From Acidobacteriota bacterium (lineage in GTDB: Bacteria; Acidobacteriota; Holophagae; Acanthopleuribacterales; Acanthopleuribacteraceae), in NCBI GenBank assembly GCA_020439745.1, contig JAGQSC010000044.1, positions 124,001 through 188,000 on the forward strand: a stretch of 64,000 nt of DNA, written 5' to 3'. Each line of letters starts with the position of its first letter. Position 1 is the first letter of the stretch. The translations under genes and the position numbers were made by a program. The notes under the pieces were generated by a model that saw only the letters and a list, made by a program, of their open reading frames with translations, was not told the DNA's origin and did not search any database. Positions 8,250 through 30,083 of the stretch are shown one piece after another.

Positions 8250-9533
8250 CTATTTCTTGGTTTCGGGAACTGCTTCGCCTGATCGAGTGAGGGCCAGTCG
8301 GAACATGGGCGGTCCGATCACCTGATTGATGGCAATCACGGTCACCGCAAACAGCTCGACTTTGGGGCCCCAAGTAGGAAAGGTCCTTGAAATAACAGAA
8401 GCCATGGCGAGCGCAATACCAGCCTGACTCACGAATGCCAACCATGCGTATGAACCCACCGATTGTTCGCAGCGACTCCATTTTGCGCCCCAGAGGCCGG
8501 CTAAGTACAAGCCAACCACGCGTAACACGCACAGTCCCAATGCCCACAGACCCAGTTCTTTGAGGGCATCAAGGCGTAAGTTCATACCGGCCAATGCGAA
8601 GAAGATACAGTAAACCGGTAGATTCAGTTTCTCCAGACCGTGAACTAGAGTTTCGGCAGAACCTTTCCATACGTTACGCAAGAGGAATCCTGCGGTCATC
8701 CCCATCAACAACGGTTCCATGTGCAGTAACGCACCCAGTTGGGCCATCACATAACAGACAATCACCAGTACCAACGGGATTTCGGCACCTACGGTGTGCA
8801 GATAGAAGGCCATGGCGATGCCAATGACCACGCCCATGCCAATGCTGCCAAACGTCTCACGGAACAGGTCCACCGCCACGTCTGCGGATATCCCTTCACC
8901 GCCCAGTACGGTGCGCCCTAAGACCAACGCCAGGGTGAATAGCACCACCACCGTCACGTCCTGAACCACCGAGACGCCAAGAGATGTCTGTGAGACAGGG
9001 CCAGACGCGCGTAACTCACCAATCATAGCCACCACCACCGCGGGCGATAAGGCCACGGCAAAGGCCGCCAAAACAAGCGCAATGATGAGGTTTGTGGTCA
9101 GTTCGCCGGTGGTGAATGGTAACCATGGGCTCAGCAGTAGCACCAAAGCAATCACGCCGATCATTAAGACCACGTTCATGGTTACCATCATCTTGAGGAT
9201 GGTACCGGCCCGCGCTTTGAGCCATGACATCTGTATTTCGGCTCCGGCCGTGAGCGCAATCAGGCTAATCGCCAAGTCGTTGACAATACGTAGTTCGTTG
9301 ACGATGTCCCGTTTGAAAATGCCCGATACCGACGGACCCAGTATCATGCCGACGATCAAGTAACCGCTGATCATGGGCAATTTGGCCAGTCGACCCACCT
9401 TGCCTGCCAGGTAGGCAAAGATGACCAACGCACCGGCGCCCATCAGCAGATTGCCATGGGTAACGTGTTGTCCCCATTTCTGAGCGACCACCAAAGCCAA
9501 GAGCACAAGGGCAAATCCCAGGAATCTACGCAT
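8250..9533 (-). CDS. CPA2-family cation:proton antiporter
   Basis: This 427-residue protein has about 12-13 hydrophobic helices and features of KefB/GerN-like CPA2 transporters: GYLIVGMILGPSVSGIF early, an acidic residue in the AGAEIQM helix, and QTSLGVSVVQDVTVVVLFTLALVLG in the core. No TrkA-N domain follows, so regulation would come from another protein. I used the ATG at 9533, which has AGAGG seven bases upstream; the frame extends to 9566 but that would overlap the upstream gene more deeply. With 9533 the overlap is 8 bp, indicating translational coupling. It is the last gene of a three-gene unit with a second CPA2-like protein and an EIIA/PII-like fusion. The ion exchanged is not evident. 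Confidence 0.87.
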   Translation of the reverse strand: MRRFLGFALVLLALVVAQKWGQHVTHGNLLMGAGALVIFAYLAGKVGRLAKLPMISGYLIVGMILGPSVSGIFKRDIVNELRIVNDLAISLIALTAGAEIQMSWLKARAGTILKMMVTMNVVLMIGVIALVLLLSPWLPFTTGELTTNLIIALVLAAFAVALSPAVVVAMIGELRASGPVSQTSLGVSVVQDVTVVVLFTLALVLGRTVLGGEGISADVAVDLFRETFGSIGMGVVIGIAMAFYLHTVGAEIPLVLVIVCYVMAQLGALLHMEPLLMGMTAGFLLRNVWKGSAETLVHGLEKLNLPVYCIFFALAGMNLRLDALKELGLWALGLCVLRVVGLYLAGLWGAKWSRCEQSVGSYAWLAFVSQAGIALAMASVISRTFPTWGPKVELFAVTVIAINQVIGPPMFRLALTRSGEAVPETKK

Positions 9534-10641
9534 GGCGAGCCTCTGTGAACCTTTTGTGCGTTTCAAGCCAAATCACAGTGACTTCGGTAGCCATCCACCC
9601 GATAAGCGCCACCTGCAACAGGAATCCTGCACTCTGGGTGAGTAACTCGTAGGCCACCACCACAACGGGTGCTGCCGCGCCTATTGAAAGTGTGTGTGGA
9701 AAAAGCGTTGCGGGTGCCCGAAACACCTTGATGGCCCAGTAACGACCCAAGATTCGGAAGGTTGCCCATGAAATGCCCAAAGCGATGGCCACCCAATTAA
9801 GGTTGGGAATCAACATGCCGGCATAAAGCAGCACGAACAGACCTACGGGACGTTCAGCATCCACGAAGACCTGGTAGATAGTCTCCTTGGCACGAAACCT
9901 GGTGTTGATGAGAGCCACACCCGAAAGGCCAGCCACTACAAAGGGCGCGAGACCGAGATCGGCCGACACACCTGCGATCAACGAAACGATACCCAGGCAG
10001 ATCGTCAGGCGTTCATCCAAGTGCGCTCTGACTGACACCAGCAACATCATGGCGAATCCCAGCGAAAGCCCTGCTATGGTCATGAACCCCAAATCTCGAA
10101 ATATGCGAGAAACTTCGTGAACTTGTCCGTCTGAACCAATGAGTAAGAAAGGCAGCGCGGCCAATGCTAGCGCCGCAAAATCGTCCAGTCCGCTACATGC
10201 TTTTCCAAGACGAATGAAGCGCCCCTTGGCCAAGTTAGTAAGTGCCGTAGGTGCCCCAGCCGCGGCCATCACCAGCGATGCTGCTATTGAGGCAATGACG
10301 CCGTGGCCCGTGATCAAAAAAACGACCATGACGGGAACGGCGGCCATTAGTCCGGCAAGAGCAGAAATACCTATTGCAAGTCTAGGGATGTTGAAGCCTA
10401 TCTTTCGCCACAAACGAAGCTCAGCTTGCGTGCCGATAATGAATCCGATCCACGCCACGCAAAAAAGTGCCAGCGGGCGCAAAGCAATTACCTGGCCCAG
10501 CTTGAACAGGCCAAATCCTGCCGGCCCAATCAACGTACCCAAAGCGAAAAAGGCAACGGGAGGCAGGGTACGGGCCAAACGGTGACGGCCACCCAAATAG
10601 GCTAGGGTGCCCAGGCACATGGCCAGAAGAATGAGGTTCAT
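9526..10641 (-). CDS. CPA2-like integral membrane transporter protein
   Basis: This 371-residue protein has about 11 membrane helices in two similar halves. Features such as LPPVAFFALGTLIGPAGFGLF and FVVAGLSGVALIN place it with sodium/proton exchanger-like (CPA2) proteins, though it is more divergent than its downstream neighbour. I preferred the ATG at 10641, preceded by GGAAG, over an in-frame TTG at 10650. Its 3' end overlaps the next antiporter gene by 8 bp, and the EIIA/PII-like gene ends upstream in the same direction 12 bp away. Two adjacent CPA2-like proteins may form a paired transporter or respond to a shared regulator. The function is inferred from family and context. Confidence 0.78.
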   Translation of the reverse strand: MNLILLAMCLGTLAYLGGRHRLARTLPPVAFFALGTLIGPAGFGLFKLGQVIALRPLALFCVAWIGFIIGTQAELRLWRKIGFNIPRLAIGISALAGLMAAVPVMVVFLITGHGVIASIAASLVMAAAGAPTALTNLAKGRFIRLGKACSGLDDFAALALAALPFLLIGSDGQVHEVSRIFRDLGFMTIAGLSLGFAMMLLVSVRAHLDERLTICLGIVSLIAGVSADLGLAPFVVAGLSGVALINTRFRAKETIYQVFVDAERPVGLFVLLYAGMLIPNLNWVAIALGISWATFRILGRYWAIKVFRAPATLFPHTLSIGAAAPVVVVAYELLTQSAGFLLQVALIGWMATEVTVIWLETHKRFTEARHA

Positions 10642-10653
10642 GGCTTCCAAGAA

Positions 10654-11445
10654 CTAAAACTCGTCGCGATTCAATCCAACAGCGCCAGAGATAGGTATGC
10701 TGAATGCCACACCACCAGCTCCGGCTTCAGTTCGCCACTCGCGAAATCGATTTAGGACGGGTTCCACCATGGTCGCGTCAATAGCTGAAAGGACAAGGCG
10801 GGCGGAACCAATGGCTCCAAAAAGCTCGCGGAATCCGGCGAAAAGGCTAGGCCCAGCGGAGAGTATTTCGGCCATACCACGACCACTGACAGAGGTTGCG
10901 CCCTGAATACCGAGCCGGGACAGCACGTTAAGGATATCGTGGACCGCCTCATCGTCGGGTAGAACCATGAAGACTAGTTCGTAAAAACGTTGGCCAGGCT
11001 CGCCTTCGCGGGCCAACACGTGCACGACATCTGCCACGTTGGTGGCTTTTCGCATCATTTCCAGGCACTTGGGCTTGTGGAGGATGCGCGCCAACGAGGA
11101 CAGAAGGTTCAAGTGGCCCTCAGGATGGTCTGGGTCGGTTAGCGTAGCGACGACTAGATCAATTTCGCTCTTGTCACCCCAGTCGATGCTCTTTTTGGGG
11201 CGAATGACGGCCAACAGTTCGCGACCTGTGGGCGCTACTCGGGCATGGGGTAATGCGATCCCGTCACCCACGTTGGTCCCCCCGAGATCTTCGCGCTCCA
11301 TGAATCCGTTGAGGATCGTTTCAGCGCTCACATTTTCGAGGGCACTCGACATCAATTCACTGAGTGACTCGAACAGTTGACGTCTGTCTTTGATGTCGGC
11401 GTCTAACACAATGAGTTCGGGATTGATCAGGTCTTTTAGTCGCAT
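10654..11445 (-). CDS. PTS EIIA (PtsN-like) domain fused to PII-like domain
   Basis: This 263-residue protein starts at ATG 11445, with GGAG five bases upstream. Residues 1-150 form a fructose/nitrogen-type EIIA domain with the phospho-accepting His in GIALPHARV (His67). Residues about 160-255 look like a small PII-like ferredoxin-fold domain (YELVFMVLPDDEAVHDILNVLSRLGIQGATSV...GRGMAEIL), a class that binds adenine nucleotides and often controls transporters. It heads a unit with two CPA2-like antiporters, so the simplest reading is a phosphorylation- and nucleotide-responsive regulator of ion exchange. PtsN is known to bind potassium transport components in enterics; that it does so here is inference. 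The EIIA domain is secure and the PII-like part moderately so. Confidence 0.82.
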   Translation of the reverse strand: MRLKDLINPELIVLDADIKDRRQLFESLSELMSSALENVSAETILNGFMEREDLGGTNVGDGIALPHARVAPTGRELLAVIRPKKSIDWGDKSEIDLVVATLTDPDHPEGHLNLLSSLARILHKPKCLEMMRKATNVADVVHVLAREGEPGQRFYELVFMVLPDDEAVHDILNVLSRLGIQGATSVSGRGMAEILSAGPSLFAGFRELFGAIGSARLVLSAIDATMVEPVLNRFREWRTEAGAGGVAFSIPISGAVGLNRDEF

Positions 11446-11560
11446 AACACTCCTTAGAAGACCCCGATTATAACCAACTTGAGTTGGACTTGCCTGGACA
11501 GCCTGAGGGGTTTCAGCGGCTTTGCGGTTAAAATGAATGGCAATTATCAGAGAGGCATTT

Positions 11561-12202
11561 ATGTGGTTTGTTTCCTGGGCAGTCTTGATTGGAAGCGCGT
11601 GGTTAGGGGATTTGAGTGGCACCGTGACCGTTATGAAAAAGGGCGGAAAGAAGCCGCTATCTGACCATTCAAACGCCGTAGTCTTTGTTGAGAAATTGAA
11701 ATCTGAGCCTGCCGAACCATTTGCGGTCTCTCATCAAATGGAAAAGCATTTTGAACCGCGGCTCCTGGTGGTGACCAAGGGTCAAGCTGTTCGGTTCGTT
11801 AATGGCGACCCCATTCAGCACAACGTTTTTTCAAAGGAGTCCGCGCCCCCATTCGACCTGGGCCACTATCCAAAAGGAGAATATCGCGAAGTCGTATTCG
11901 AAGAAACGGGCTTCTATAAGGTCTACTGCAACATTCATCAGGAGATGATCCAGGATGTTGTGGTTTTGGACAACCATTTCTTTGCCACGACGGGTCCCGA
12001 TGGTGCCTACCGCATTGCAAACCTACCCGCAGGCGAGTATCAGGTTACGGCCTGGCACATTTATGGAGGCACAGAAACGAAGACCGTGGTGGTGGGTGGG
12101 GACCCGGTAGATTTTAGATTGGTGAGTACCAAGCACGTGCGCGAAGCCACCAGGCACCTGAATAAGGAAGGTCAGGAGTATTCCGATACTGAAAGCTACT
12201 GA
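11561..12202 (+). CDS. secreted cupredoxin-like protein with carboxypeptidase-regulatory-like domain
   Basis: This 213-residue protein begins at ATG 11561 (AGAGAGG six bases upstream) with a signal peptide ending near GDLSG. Its first domain is cupredoxin-like: VRFVNGDPIQHNVFS supplies one His, and VYCNIHQEM supplies Cys, His and Met, the four ligands of a type-1 copper site. It is followed by a short beta-sandwich (ATTGPDGAYRIANLPAGEYQVTAWH) of the carboxypeptidase regulatory/CnaB-like type. This is the arrangement of proteins annotated as methylamine-utilisation-like or plastocyanin-like periplasmic proteins. The stop is three bases before the adenylate cyclase start, so the two are very likely co-translated. 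Electron transfer or copper sensing is possible; neither is shown. Confidence 0.83.
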   Translation: MWFVSWAVLIGSAWLGDLSGTVTVMKKGGKKPLSDHSNAVVFVEKLKSEPAEPFAVSHQMEKHFEPRLLVVTKGQAVRFVNGDPIQHNVFSKESAPPFDLGHYPKGEYREVVFEETGFYKVYCNIHQEMIQDVVVLDNHFFATTGPDGAYRIANLPAGEYQVTAWHIYGGTETKTVVVGGDPVDFRLVSTKHVREATRHLNKEGQEYSDTESY

Positions 12203-24963: not shown

Positions 24964-25260
24964 GACGTCTCCCGCAGTTCCGCACACCAATTGCTACTTG
25001 AAATCTAGGGTTTTCAACGGCCACTATCAAGTGAACGATTGTTGGCCATCCAACAGTATGTGGGCTTTTGGAAAGTTACTTATTCACCAAGGACCGTTTC
25101 TCCGCAGGGTTGGGGAAATTGATGCCGAATCCAGGCATGATTTACGTAGGAACCATGGAGCTTATTTGCAAGAAAAGCGCCGCCAAGTGTTGGCTAGGGA
25201 GCTCCAAACACAAGGGTCTCGATGGTCGATCAAAGAGGGTTATTGATACAATAGCAGCGT
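24964..25260. other. 297-bp divergent intergenic region before the PqqD-like gene
   Basis: This region separates the 22246 gene (minus) from the PqqD-like gene (plus). It contains an ATG-initiated frame at 25058-25246 (62 residues, basic, four AGG codons, no ribosome site) ending 14 bases before the PqqD-like start. I do not call this a gene, but it is the only candidate for a peptide upstream of the cassette. A TACAAT lies at 25247-25252. Confidence 0.4.
25247..25260 (+). promoter_or_regulatory. candidate -10 element giving a leaderless PqqD-like mRNA
   Basis: TACAAT at 25247-25252 ends eight bases before the ATG at 25261, which has no Shine-Dalgarno sequence. Transcription would then begin at or next to the start codon. 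The -35 region (near 25224) is poor. Confidence 0.3.
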
Positions 25261-25560
25261 ATGTTGGGAGAGACGAAAAAGGGGGCGGATATCCAAGTCA
25301 TTATTGCGAACCACATCATTGTTCAACCGGTGGGGCGAGAAGCAATCTTACTGGGCCTTGAGGATAATGTTTATTATGAGCTCAACGAGACGGGTGTGTT
25401 TGTGTTTGAGCAATTGCGTGCAGGTAACGGTATTGATGCCATTGCACAGAAATTGTCCGATCAATTTGATGTGGACTTGGATACAGCTACTCGTGACGTG
25501 AAAATGCTCATCGAATCCTTGATCCAGAAAGGGATCGTATCAAAACTGGATCTGGTTTAA
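25261..25560 (+). CDS. PqqD-like peptide-binding protein (RiPP recognition element fold)
   Basis: This 99-residue protein has the PqqD pattern: a beta-hairpin start, LGLEDNVYYELNETGVFVFEQLRAG, then IDAIAQKLSDQFDVDLDTATRDVKMLIESLIQKGIV, the winged-helix-like part with the closing helix. PqqD-like domains bind the leader of a ribosomal peptide and present it to modifying enzymes. No Shine-Dalgarno site precedes the ATG, and a -10-like TACAAT lies eight bases before it, so the message may be leaderless. Ten bases after its stop the HprK-like gene begins, then the nucleotidyltransferase, making a compact three-gene cassette. The family call is firm; the peptide it would carry is not identified. 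Confidence 0.85.
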   Translation: MLGETKKGADIQVIIANHIIVQPVGREAILLGLEDNVYYELNETGVFVFEQLRAGNGIDAIAQKLSDQFDVDLDTATRDVKMLIESLIQKGIVSKLDLV

Positions 25561-25570
25561 GAGGTCCTCT

Positions 25571-26491
25571 TTGAGACTCAACCGGTATTCCGTGCACGGT
25601 GTGGTGCTTGAAAGTGAAATCGACTTGGCACTTCCCACGACTGAAAGGGAAACAGGCCCAGTCATCACCATTCGCTGTGGCCATGTACCGCTGCCAACAG
25701 ACTGGCAATTTGAATCCAGGACTCGAGGGCTGACGGGTAAACCGATTTATCAGGTTCAGCATGAGGGACCCTCGTTCGTGGTGGCGTTTCCAGATCGCTA
25801 CGTCATGCAGGTGACCCAACACGAGATTCTAGTTGATTGCCATCCGTCTGATGCACAGGTTCGGCCTTTTGTTATGGCCAAACCCCTCAGCCTGTGTCTT
25901 GAGTTGAATGGTTTGGTTGTTTTGCACGCAGCCAGTTGTTTGATAGGCGACCAATTGATTGCGTTGATGGGTCCATCGTTAGCGGGAAAAACGTCATTGA
26001 GTTTGGCGTTGAGAGAATACGGTCATCACATACATACCGATGATGTGATTGTCCTTGATCCGACAGATGAATCGTTTACGGTGGCATCCGGGCCCATCTG
26101 GTCCAAAGTATGGCCAGATACAGCGGAACGATTTGTGCCGGATTTTTACCAGTCGCCACTAGTTACAACCGCGACTACCAAACGAATGGTGGCCCGTTCG
26201 CGAGTGCACGATGCCGCGAAATTGGCGCATCTATTCGCGCTTGAGCGTACCGTTGATGTGGATGACGTCGAGATCGTTCCGTTAGCACCTGCTAAGGCAC
26301 TCGTGTCCCTAGTGACAATGACCCATTTGGCTGAAATTGAAGTGATGTTGCCCAATAGGGCAGCGCGCATGGCGTTGCTCGCCACGTTAGTGGATCAAAT
26401 TGAGGTGCATCAACTCAGGTACCCCACCGGCTTTGATCACTTGCCTAAGGTTGTGTCATTGTTGGACCGCTATGTTTCTCAAAGATCCTGA
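25571..26491 (+). CDS. HPr kinase-like P-loop kinase
   Basis: This 306-residue protein has a Walker A motif GPSLAGKT (residues 134-141) followed by a HxHTDDVIVLD segment that corresponds to the second acidic motif of HprK-type kinases, in a C-terminal half of HprK size. The N-terminal 110 residues are beta-rich and unlike the HprK N-domain of Firmicutes. Such kinases in lasso-peptide clusters phosphorylate the precursor peptide on serine; true HprK phosphorylates HPr. No HPr gene is in the window. The start is TTG 25571 with GAGG six bases upstream, ten bases after the PqqD-like gene; its 3' end overlaps the nucleotidyltransferase gene by 20 bp. Confidence 0.83.
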   Translation: MRLNRYSVHGVVLESEIDLALPTTERETGPVITIRCGHVPLPTDWQFESRTRGLTGKPIYQVQHEGPSFVVAFPDRYVMQVTQHEILVDCHPSDAQVRPFVMAKPLSLCLELNGLVVLHAASCLIGDQLIALMGPSLAGKTSLSLALREYGHHIHTDDVIVLDPTDESFTVASGPIWSKVWPDTAERFVPDFYQSPLVTTATTKRMVARSRVHDAAKLAHLFALERTVDVDDVEIVPLAPAKALVSLVTMTHLAEIEVMLPNRAARMALLATLVDQIEVHQLRYPTGFDHLPKVVSLLDRYVSQRS

Positions 26492-27545
26492 TTTCGAGTT
26501 GATGTTGCGCGCTGTGCGTGCTTGGCTCAAGGACGAACAATTTTCAGAAGTGCTGACCCCAGGCGCTTGGGAATACGCCCGCTGGCACAGGCTAGATGGC
26601 GTACTGGCATTTCTGTCAGATCCCGTTTTGCTGCGGAACCGCGTGATGGAAGAGATGCAGGACGAAGCGTTGTTGATGGAACTGGCATCCGCATTCAATG
26701 GGGAACAGATTGGTTTCATTACGTTTAAGGGCCTGGAGAACAGCAGGCGATTCCATTGGCAGCCCGGCGTACGTCGGGCAAAAGATATCGATCTACTGGT
26801 GGAGCCCGACAAACGCGACATGGCCATTGAGTTGATGGAAAAACTCGGTTTTGCTTTTCCCGATCATGTGGTCTATCTGAAAAGGGGTTTCGATGTGGAG
26901 CACAGTGTCATTTGTGTCCGACAAAATCGTATCGTTGATCTCCATTGGCGCATGGATTCACCCGCTTATCCCTTCGTTTCGGTGGGGGATGTATTTTCTC
27001 ACACCACATCGCTTTTCCTGGGTAGTGTGCAGATTCCGGTCTTGACCCCAGACATGGAGTTCGCTTATCTCGTGTATCACGGTTCGAAACATCTGTGGTA
27101 TCGGCTTCATTGGCTGGTTGATTTATGTGCATTTGTGAGAAGCTGCCCATTGACACCGGAAATCATTCAACGAATCCACGAATCGGGTCAACACAGATCC
27201 TATCTGGTCGCCAATGGACTGACGACGAAACTCTTTGATTTTCCTATTTGCGACCCTGATGAAGCGCCCGCAGTTTCGACTGACAGAGTCGAATATGTGG
27301 TGTCCTTTTGGCAAAAAGGAGCGCGACATCATCCCGTTTCAATTCAAATGACGCCCTTTCAGCTTTTCCGGGCCAATCTTCAGTTCACTTCGTCGGGCTT
27401 ACTCAAGTGGAAACGCCTTTGGGCCGCACTTACCCATCCTACTAACTCCGACTTACAGGTATTTGGCGGTTTTTTGTCCCGGTTTCCTTGGATCGTGGTA
27501 TTGCGACCCATGCGCGTGCTATTTGCTTCATTAGGCCGTAAATAG
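26472..27545 (+). CDS. nucleotidyltransferase-family protein (NTP_transf_5 type)
   Basis: This 357-residue protein carries the signature of the NTP_transf_5 family: FITFKGLENSRRF, then VRRAKDIDLLVEPD with the metal-binding DID (Asp105, Asp107), and a later HSVICVRQNRIVDLHWRM that gives the third acidic/His region. These proteins accompany PqqD-like and HprK-like genes in several lasso-peptide clusters and add a nucleotide-derived or sugar group after phosphorylation. I placed the start at ATG 26472, overlapping the kinase by 20 bp; the frame is open back to 26400 but overlaps the kinase more and lacks the family start. It ends the cassette. The substrate is unknown. Confidence 0.83.
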   Translation: MFLKDPDFELMLRAVRAWLKDEQFSEVLTPGAWEYARWHRLDGVLAFLSDPVLLRNRVMEEMQDEALLMELASAFNGEQIGFITFKGLENSRRFHWQPGVRRAKDIDLLVEPDKRDMAIELMEKLGFAFPDHVVYLKRGFDVEHSVICVRQNRIVDLHWRMDSPAYPFVSVGDVFSHTTSLFLGSVQIPVLTPDMEFAYLVYHGSKHLWYRLHWLVDLCAFVRSCPLTPEIIQRIHESGQHRSYLVANGLTTKLFDFPICDPDEAPAVSTDRVEYVVSFWQKGARHHPVSIQMTPFQLFRANLQFTSSGLLKWKRLWAALTHPTNSDLQVFGGFLSRFPWIVVLRPMRVLFASLGRK

Positions 27546-28182: not shown

Positions 28183-28346
28183 AGAGTGGCCTCCATGCAC
28201 ATTCTAACAGGTCGGATGTGGCCTTGGTGTGATTGCCATTGAGTACCTGTCGTGTCTATTTGTTCGCATGTAAGCATGAGCTGGCTCATATACATTGCTG
28301 GATTTATTGTCTATGATGCGGCGGAACAAAAGTTGAGGATATGTCT

Positions 28347-30083
28347 ATGTTTCGTGCGTGGTGTTGGATGACTTGCTTCGCGACCTGTGTGTTTGCGCAG
28401 ATCTCGGGCCAGGTGCTGGATTTGGTTTCCGGGTTGCCCATTGAGGGTGCATTGGTGACGGTCCAGGAGACCCATGAACAGGTGGTGACCGACGCCAGCG
28501 GCGCGTTTGCCCTGACCGATACTGGTTTGAATCGAGTTGTGGTTGCCGCCCACAAGGGACACTACCACAGTGCTCTAACCCTGAGTGCTCCCATCAGTGG
28601 CACAATGTTTCGCCTGGAACTAGTAGCTATCGAAAACGACCCAGGTTACACGCTATGGCCCCCGGGTGACTGCGGCTCGTGCCATCCTAAACAATATGAT
28701 GAGTGGCTGGGCACACCCATGTCGCTCGCTGGGTTTAATACTTGGGTGTTGGATATTTACAATGGAAACGGGACCGCAGGCGGGATGGGTGGATTTGTGT
28801 ATACCCGAGATTCCGTCCATGCAGGCGTCAATCCCAATTCAGAATGCGCATCCTGTCATCAACCCCAACATTGGATTGAAAATCCGATGGCGGCATTGGA
28901 CGATAATCTGGCCATGCCCACACCAGCCGTCATGCATGGTGTCTCGTGCGATGTGTGCCATAAGGTAGCCGATGTGAATGTGGCCAACATCAACTATCCA
29001 GGACTCTTCCCTGGGGCCGCGACTCATATTCGTCCCAGCGACGATCAAGTGCTTTTTGGCGTGTTGGCCGACGTAGATTTCGATGTACCCACCGCTATGC
29101 GCGCTTCATATCAGCCGCAAATGGTCGCTGAATTATGCGGTCTATGTCATCAAGACAAAAACGATCCCGACGATTCCCATTCATTTAACGGCGTGATCTC
29201 AGAGCCGACCTATCTGGAATGGTTGGACTCGCCTTATGGCGATCCGCAATCTGTCTTGTATACGACCTGCGTGGACTGCCACATGCCGCCGTCCATAGAC
29301 AACGAAGTATGTGGCGTGGTGATTCCGCCACCTCGAAACGTAGAACGCGTGCGGTCGCACCGCATTTTGGGCACCACACCGAATTTCCTTGAAAACGCCG
29401 TGGAAATGGTTGTGAACACCGAGATTGTGGGCGATCAACTTCAGGTCCAGGTGGATCTGGCAAACACGCTCACGGGTCACCATGTTCCTACCGGTGTGAC
29501 CGTCCGCAACATGATCCTAGTGGTGGATGCATGGCTTGATGGTCATGATCCACTGGTGTCACCACTCCCCGAATTGGGAGGTCAAGTGGTCCACGATTTG
29601 GGGGGTATCGGCGATCCCGCGCAGGGTTACTTTGCGGGGTTGCCTGGCAAGTTCTTCGCCAAGGTAAACCACGATCAAAATGGCAATGGGCCTACCTTCT
29701 TTACGGATGCTACAGGCATTACTTTTGATAGTCGCATTCCGGCTCTGGCCGTTGACACCACAACTTATGCATTTCAATTGCCAACAGGGAATAACCTGGT
29801 TCATGTAAGGGCCCGACTGATTTACCGGCGAGCATTCCGCTTTTTAGTGGATGCCAAGCAATGGACCGTAGACGGCCATGGCAATCCGCTGGAGGACGTG
29901 CAAGGTCCTGACTTTGGCCATCTGATGGAAATCTATTCCGAGTCCCTTCAGGCAGGTGTGGCAGCACCAGTACCTGCGTTGAATGCCTGGGGCGTGGGCT
30001 TCATGACCTCCCTGTTGGCTATAGGGGCGATAGCCGTCCGAAGACGATTCAGGGCGGAGCCATCAAAGGACCCACTGCCGTGA
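28347..30083 (+). CDS. secreted pentahaem cytochrome c with carboxypeptidase-regulatory-like domain and IPTL-like C-terminal anchor
   Basis: This 578-residue protein has a signal peptide (FRAWCWMTCFATCVFAQ), then a short regulatory-like beta-sandwich (about 20-95, ISGQVLDLVSGLPIEGALVTV) and five haem motifs: CGSCH at 109, CASCH at 167, CDVCH at 201, CGLCH at 264 and CVDCH at 308. The pattern fits cytochrome c554-like multihaem proteins. A beta-rich region follows. The C-terminus is PVPALNAWGVGF, a hydrophobic helix, and an Arg cluster (RRRFR), the three-part layout of IPTL/PEP-CTERM sorting signals. It would hold the cytochrome at the cell surface or membrane. I used ATG 28347 (GAGG eight bases upstream); ATG 28341 is nearer than optimal. 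Its end overlaps the convergent 30049 gene by 35 bp. Confidence 0.85.
   Translation: MFRAWCWMTCFATCVFAQISGQVLDLVSGLPIEGALVTVQETHEQVVTDASGAFALTDTGLNRVVVAAHKGHYHSALTLSAPISGTMFRLELVAIENDPGYTLWPPGDCGSCHPKQYDEWLGTPMSLAGFNTWVLDIYNGNGTAGGMGGFVYTRDSVHAGVNPNSECASCHQPQHWIENPMAALDDNLAMPTPAVMHGVSCDVCHKVADVNVANINYPGLFPGAATHIRPSDDQVLFGVLADVDFDVPTAMRASYQPQMVAELCGLCHQDKNDPDDSHSFNGVISEPTYLEWLDSPYGDPQSVLYTTCVDCHMPPSIDNEVCGVVIPPPRNVERVRSHRILGTTPNFLENAVEMVVNTEIVGDQLQVQVDLANTLTGHHVPTGVTVRNMILVVDAWLDGHDPLVSPLPELGGQVVHDLGGIGDPAQGYFAGLPGKFFAKVNHDQNGNGPTFFTDATGITFDSRIPALAVDTTTYAFQLPTGNNLVHVRARLIYRRAFRFLVDAKQWTVDGHGNPLEDVQGPDFGHLMEIYSESLQAGVAAPVPALNAWGVGFMTSLLAIGAIAVRRRFRAEPSKDPLP

Follow-up and report, generated by a model that had tools for sequence, protein, structure and literature searches.

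In the characterised phosphorylated lasso peptide systems, the paeninodin (PadeK), ThcoK and pseudomycoidin (PsmK/PsmN) loci, the precursor (A), the recognition protein (B1), the B2 protease, the cyclase (C), the kinase (K) and the nucleotidyltransferase (N), where present, are encoded in a cluster. The kinase phosphorylates the precursor ahead of ring closure (PMC9266682, PMC10368454), in paeninodin at the C-terminal Ser, and a His-Lys-Asp-Asp set in PadeK and ThcoK is important by mutation (PMC9266682). N decorates the phosphate, with hexoses in pseudomycoidin, and nucleotidylation is not excluded (PMC9266682, PMC10368454). The bsf cluster of the Gram-negative Bradymonas sediminis (BsfA/B1/B2/C/D/K/N) encodes a kinase with the motif residues H148-G163-G168-K169-S170-D186-D187, and its B1 accelerates the kinase and is needed together with B2 (PMC10368454). 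An RRE, a kinase and an N without a cyclase can also be a system of their own, that of the linear polyphosphorylated peptides (LPPs) of Bacillota (PMC13381572). Tailoring of a lasso peptide by a remote enzyme is known from citrulassin, whose peptidylarginine deiminase is encoded off-cluster (PMC12971885), and unclustered proteases are known for lanthipeptides (PMC8960859). We found no report in the open-access literature of a lasso pathway with B1 away from A and C.

Results

A B1-K-N cassette in a member of the Acanthopleuribacteraceae

The window analysed here is a 64-kb stretch of a draft assembly (G000; 97% complete, 65 contigs). Three ORFs on its forward strand at 25261-27545 encode a PqqD-type RiPP recognition element, that is a leader-binding B1 protein (25261..25560), a predicted HprK-like lasso precursor kinase K with a TTG start (25571..26491), and N, a homologue of the lasso N proteins that belongs to the NTP_transf_5 nucleotidyltransferases (PF14907; 26472..27545). 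A gap of 10 bp separates B1 from K, and K runs 20 bp into N, the ATG at 26472 being a likelier start for N than the mechanical TTG at 26400. At 28341-30083 the window encodes a putative multihaem cytochrome, predicted to be secreted, in which a carboxypeptidase-regulatory-like domain is combined with an IPTL-CTERM motif.

B1 matched PF05402 (PqqD) with an E-value of 2.5e-16. Its top NCBIfam models were lasso B1 families, NF033530 at 60 bits and NF033536 at 39 bits, both under the exception-level cut-offs of 70 and 80, and its matches in the PDB were TfuB1, TbiB1 and a lasso PqqD chaperone. By these matches the window B1 is of the lasso type, and supplies the discrete RRE of a lasso cluster. 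It is one of three PqqD proteins in the genome, the others lying at a second lasso locus (L023) and at a radical-SAM locus on contig C27. Pfam Hpr_kinase_C matched K alone weakly (0.068). With a profile of ten homologues, by contrast, the top matches in the whole PDB were HPr kinases (3tqf, 2.1e-9; 2qmh, 4.5e-8; 1jb1, 5.9e-8). Residues H119, G134-G139-K140-T141 of the P-loop and D157-D158 are invariant or near-invariant in our alignment (A2) and correspond to the His-Lys-Asp-Asp of PadeK and ThcoK and to the BsfK motif; K thus has the conserved His, P-loop Lys and Asp-Asp of the lasso kinases in H119, K140, D157 and D158. N matched PF14907 with an E-value of 2.3e-28 and keeps the KG, DxD and His motifs, its K, G, R, D, D, H and H residues being invariant across 12 homologues; searching by sequence gave no meaningful solved structural relatives of N. 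The E-values and conserved catalytic residues rule out chance for the cassette genes. The initial annotation, which had assigned the three genes to the PqqD-like, HprK-like and NTP_transf_5 families and had seen in them a likeness to lasso tailoring parts, is borne out on both counts by these matches, the lasso B1 relatives and the lasso-kinase residues of K.

A profile scan of the 64-kb window, together with family scans of the whole genome, detected no B2, cyclase or precursor in the window, in agreement with the same annotation. The asparagine-synthetase-like cyclase of a lasso locus is thus absent from the window, and one with an SGGMDS motif lies at 323 kb of contig C63; likewise, the window has no precursor with a YxxP leader, Thr(-2) and an acidic residue at core position 7-9. 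One candidate, MPNPGMIYVGTMELICKK... at 25122, appeared leader-like by eye and was rejected: it overlaps B1 out of frame by about 100 bp, and the precursor-profile matches listed for the window, which reached an E-value of only 2.7 at best, do not include it. Scanning genome contigs with the window kinase gave no close relatives for selection analysis.

Lasso loci in sister genomes

Homologues of K were detected in all six sister genomes (G001-G006; Acanthopleuribacteraceae, Acidobacteriota). Another 54 genomes of the class were sampled, and one of them had a homologue. A lasso-type precursor adjoins the K homologue in 6/6 sister genomes, joined by C and B1 in five. The order is B1-C-A-K with a convergent B2 in the complete genome of Sulfidibacter corallicola M133 (G003), in a Holophagae MAG (G005) and in Acanthopleuribacter pedis (G006). 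G004 shows the same B1-C-A-K order, its only strong B2 being encoded on a different contig; G001, of the same genus as the source organism, has A-C-B1-K together and lacks a dedicated B2; and in G002 A-K-N (C95, L019) and B1-B2-C (C37, L113) are on separate contigs. The precursors have in common Y..P....G....LT leaders and an acidic residue at core position 7-9. Among the first-group precursors, those of G001 (C8), G003, G004, G005 and G006 have a terminal Ser, as does the precursor at C63:324 kb of the source genome; the exception, that of G002, ends SSSQG. The initial annotation had described the cassette as an orphan and had named full lasso-cyclase genes at homologous loci among the observations that would count against it. 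Since the homologous loci of the relatives carry C, that description is not supported.

Other loci were seen in the course of these scans. A second PqqD-kinase pair in G003 (L021), at first taken for an orphan, has an adjoining cyclase-like frame in the profile scan. G001 has a second lasso locus (L020, 5952-9501; G001:C22) that encodes a pair of precursor-like peptides along with B1, C and K, near genes of NeuB/CMP-sugar type, and its main precursor is without a terminal Ser. An Anaerolineae MAG (Chloroflexota; L125) has a complete C-A-K-N-B1-B2 cluster of the phosphorylated-lasso type, with the precursor ...KKPYTQPKLESYGHLHNVTLGSSSGIGESGNREFVP.

In the tree, the window K is sister to K of the G001 A-C-B1-K locus (support 81/84). 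The two regions also share an operon of PTS_EIIA_2, unassigned transporter-like and Na-H exchanger genes, used as a synteny marker only, which lies at 8250..11622 on the reverse strand of the window and is 77%, 59% and 68% identical to G001:C8:378573-381772. The G001 counterpart follows immediately after K of the intact locus, and in the window the operon is 14 kb from the cassette. In G003, G004, G005 and G006, the N genes that cluster with the window N (95/91 and 98/97) are solitary ones. These have no flanking lasso genes, though their genomes carry intact first-group lasso loci, and in the complete genome of G003 the solitary N sits 1.2 Mb from the lasso locus. In the window the solitary-N lineage is linked to B1-K, a hint that the unlinked N genes of these relatives may belong to their lasso pathways.

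A complementary C-A pair on another contig

A precursor profile built without any sequence from the source genome detected only two lasso-type precursors there, at C63:324439 (E 1.2e-4) and C63:601748 (E 0.03). The former (L073) sits behind a 542-aa cyclase with intact SGGMDS, the two genes forming a locus at G000:C63:322.7-324.6 kb, and has a Y..P leader, LT, a ring Asp at position 8 and a C-terminal Ser. No B1, K or N was found near this pair. Since the window has B1-K-N and C63:324 kb has only C-A, the two loci are exact complements. The proposal in the initial annotation that the cassette may modify a standalone or distant peptide gains support from this matching precursor and cyclase on another contig. 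The distance to the closer contig end is 61 kb for the cassette (on C26, 212 kb) and 288 kb for the C-A pair (on C63, 613 kb). Both loci thus lie deep inside contigs and, barring an assembly error, are separated by some 350 kb or more. Comparison of the DNA upstream of the two loci turned up no common 9-mer.

The second precursor, at 601.7 kb, belongs to a self-contained locus (L023; N/K/C/A/methyltransferase/B1) inside a polysaccharide region. It ends in Gly, and its cyclase clusters with another locus type (98/97).

A family scan detected no dedicated lasso B2 in the genome. The single genuine B2-like protein, with Cys and His motifs, is encoded at the radical-SAM locus at C27:109.5 kb; a second match, at C63:163.8 kb, was rejected as an ordinary exported transglutaminase-like protein. 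The radical SAM-SPASM locus (L024, 5396-9014; G000:C27:108.4-112.0 kb) is conserved in G001 (L074, 9163-12551; G001:C1), with genes for a PqqD-like protein, a P-loop kinase-like protein, a B2-like transglutaminase and a PF14907 N, and a divergent 1738-aa secreted protein. A lasso-type precursor was not found at either of these loci.

Beside the C-A pair lies a gene for a secreted protein of 883 aa that has a PTL-type signal at its C terminus. The best genome-wide match of this protein adjoins the intact lasso locus in G003, G004, G005 and G006 (33-46% identity), and in G001 it has no lasso genes beside it. Large secreted proteins with IPTL/PTL-type C-terminal signals (L073, 9997-12648, and homologues in L015-L018) recur beside lasso loci.

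The distant C groups with old-locus cyclases and the window K with new-locus K. With C and K in different locus groups, the halves may stem from two paralogous clusters, not from one split cluster. The simplest history would be that the genus ancestor had two first-group lasso loci which then underwent reciprocal loss; translocation is a possible alternative. The placement of the distant C (60/73) is too weak to choose between these histories, and support for the placement of B1 is weak as well.

Discussion

We propose, with a probability of roughly two-thirds, that the cassette is the recognition and tailoring half of a phosphorylated lasso pathway whose C and A are at G000:C63:322.7-324.6 kb. 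Observed were the genes at each locus, their homologies and catalytic residues, the way in which the two loci complement each other, and synteny; the pairing in trans and the following catalytic steps are inferred from these. The precursor MNSMTQSNETQIRDKKAPYVKPECIKLGTIEQLTK|GPQAVPSDTDSAGILGGGGTS would be produced at the distant locus and its YxxP leader motif bound by the window B1, which would pass it to K for phosphorylation of the C-terminal Ser, possibly more than once; B1 and K would be a sensible module, as B1 speeds the kinase in the Bsf system. N would add a further group, a hexose or nucleotidyl group, onto the phosphate. Cleavage would remove the leader after Thr(-2)-Lys(-1); the radical-SAM locus on C27 encodes the one B2-like protease that was found. 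The distant C would join Gly1 to Asp8. Some of these genes could be relics. It is also conceivable, though we hold it only tentatively, that the pathway is a hybrid, with B1-K-N from one ancestral cluster, A-C from a second paralogous cluster, following reciprocal loss of genes, and a leader protease shared with the radical-SAM locus, so that three chromosomal places serve one product.

The proposed pathway resembles those of paeninodin, ThcoK and pseudomycoidin in B1, in a K with His-Lys-Asp-Asp, in the class of N and in a precursor with a C-terminal Ser. However, the genes of those systems are clustered, whereas here B1-K-N and A-C are on two contigs and no dedicated B2 was found. The bsf system is alike in its Gram-negative host, its K and N classes and its kinase motif residues, but it is clustered, phosphorylates Ser3 and has Ile(-2), whereas in the candidate partner position -2 is Thr and the last residue is Ser. 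In citrulassin, which shares the off-cluster encoding, only a tailoring enzyme is remote, whereas here B1 would be remote too.

The cassette is not a new stand-alone system, and the readings in which the C-A pair has no part are all of low probability. It is unlikely that the cassette is a decaying remnant of an A-C-B1-K locus that lost A and C, its substrate gone. In the sister species, the operon that lies 14 kb away from the cassette here adjoins the intact A-C-B1-K locus, and the window, which has no precursor of its own, may therefore have lost A and C. However, the three ORFs are intact and tightly packed, their catalytic residues are kept, N is retained beside B1-K, and the genome retains exactly one C-A pair lacking just these parts. 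We consider it improbable that the cassette acts on a linear peptide as in the LPPs, even though these combine the identical three enzyme families (RRE, HprK-like kinase and NTP transferase) and likewise have no local cyclase. LPPs have been reported only from Bacillota, and have their own SpI peptidase, MsbA-like exporter and YxxPxVLxHQ precursors; here no [YW]..P.[VLIFA]L.H frame was present in the window, L073, L023 or L024, and no SipW-like peptidase or MsbA-like exporter was seen among the neighbours scanned. Moreover, a cyclase is encoded elsewhere in this genome, and the nearest K homologues adjoin C and lasso precursors.

Two further readings place the cassette with other systems. It is improbable that it serves the lasso locus at C63:601 kb or the radical-SAM PqqD locus on C27, which lie in the same genome and have protein families in common with it: each has its own B1, kinase-like protein and N, and at C63:601 kb the cyclase is of another type and the precursor ends in Gly, not Ser. 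Least probable of all is an HPr-rel-A-type kinase-chaperone system (TIGR04352/TIGR04353), unrelated to lasso peptides. The initial annotation had mentioned this group, which matches the cassette in its three families (kinase, PqqD protein and nucleotidyltransferase), and such cassettes do occur in related genomes (TIGR04352, 77 bits; TIGR04353, 26 bits). These lie at L050 512-2532 and L051 1225-3551 and are followed by a gene for a protein of about 410 aa, with PqqD seen in L051 only, as the L050 sequence is cut. But the window proteins fail the models of this group: K scored 16.1 bits against the TIGR04352 cut-off of 200, and B1 gave no TIGR04353 match, whereas it did match the lasso models. 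The more similar cassettes of the sister genomes are a separate clade, the window N and those of L050 and L051 being on different, well-supported branches, and the relatives of K reside in lasso clusters. The suggested relation to HPr-rel-A therefore finds no support.

With the precursor and the ring-closing enzyme far off in the genome, gene finders that look only at neighbours would miss the connection between the cassette and the distant C-A pair. Lasso parts are repeatedly scattered in this family: B1-K-N and A-C are apart here, as are A-K-N and B1-B2-C in G002, B2 stands alone in G004, and in G003-G006, one of them the complete genome of Sulfidibacter corallicola, N lies off-cluster. If these parts cooperate, cluster-based searches would undercount such pathways, and a lone B1-K-N cassette or C-A pair would point to another half elsewhere in the genome. 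The specificity of RREs among several leaders in one cell would then be directly testable.
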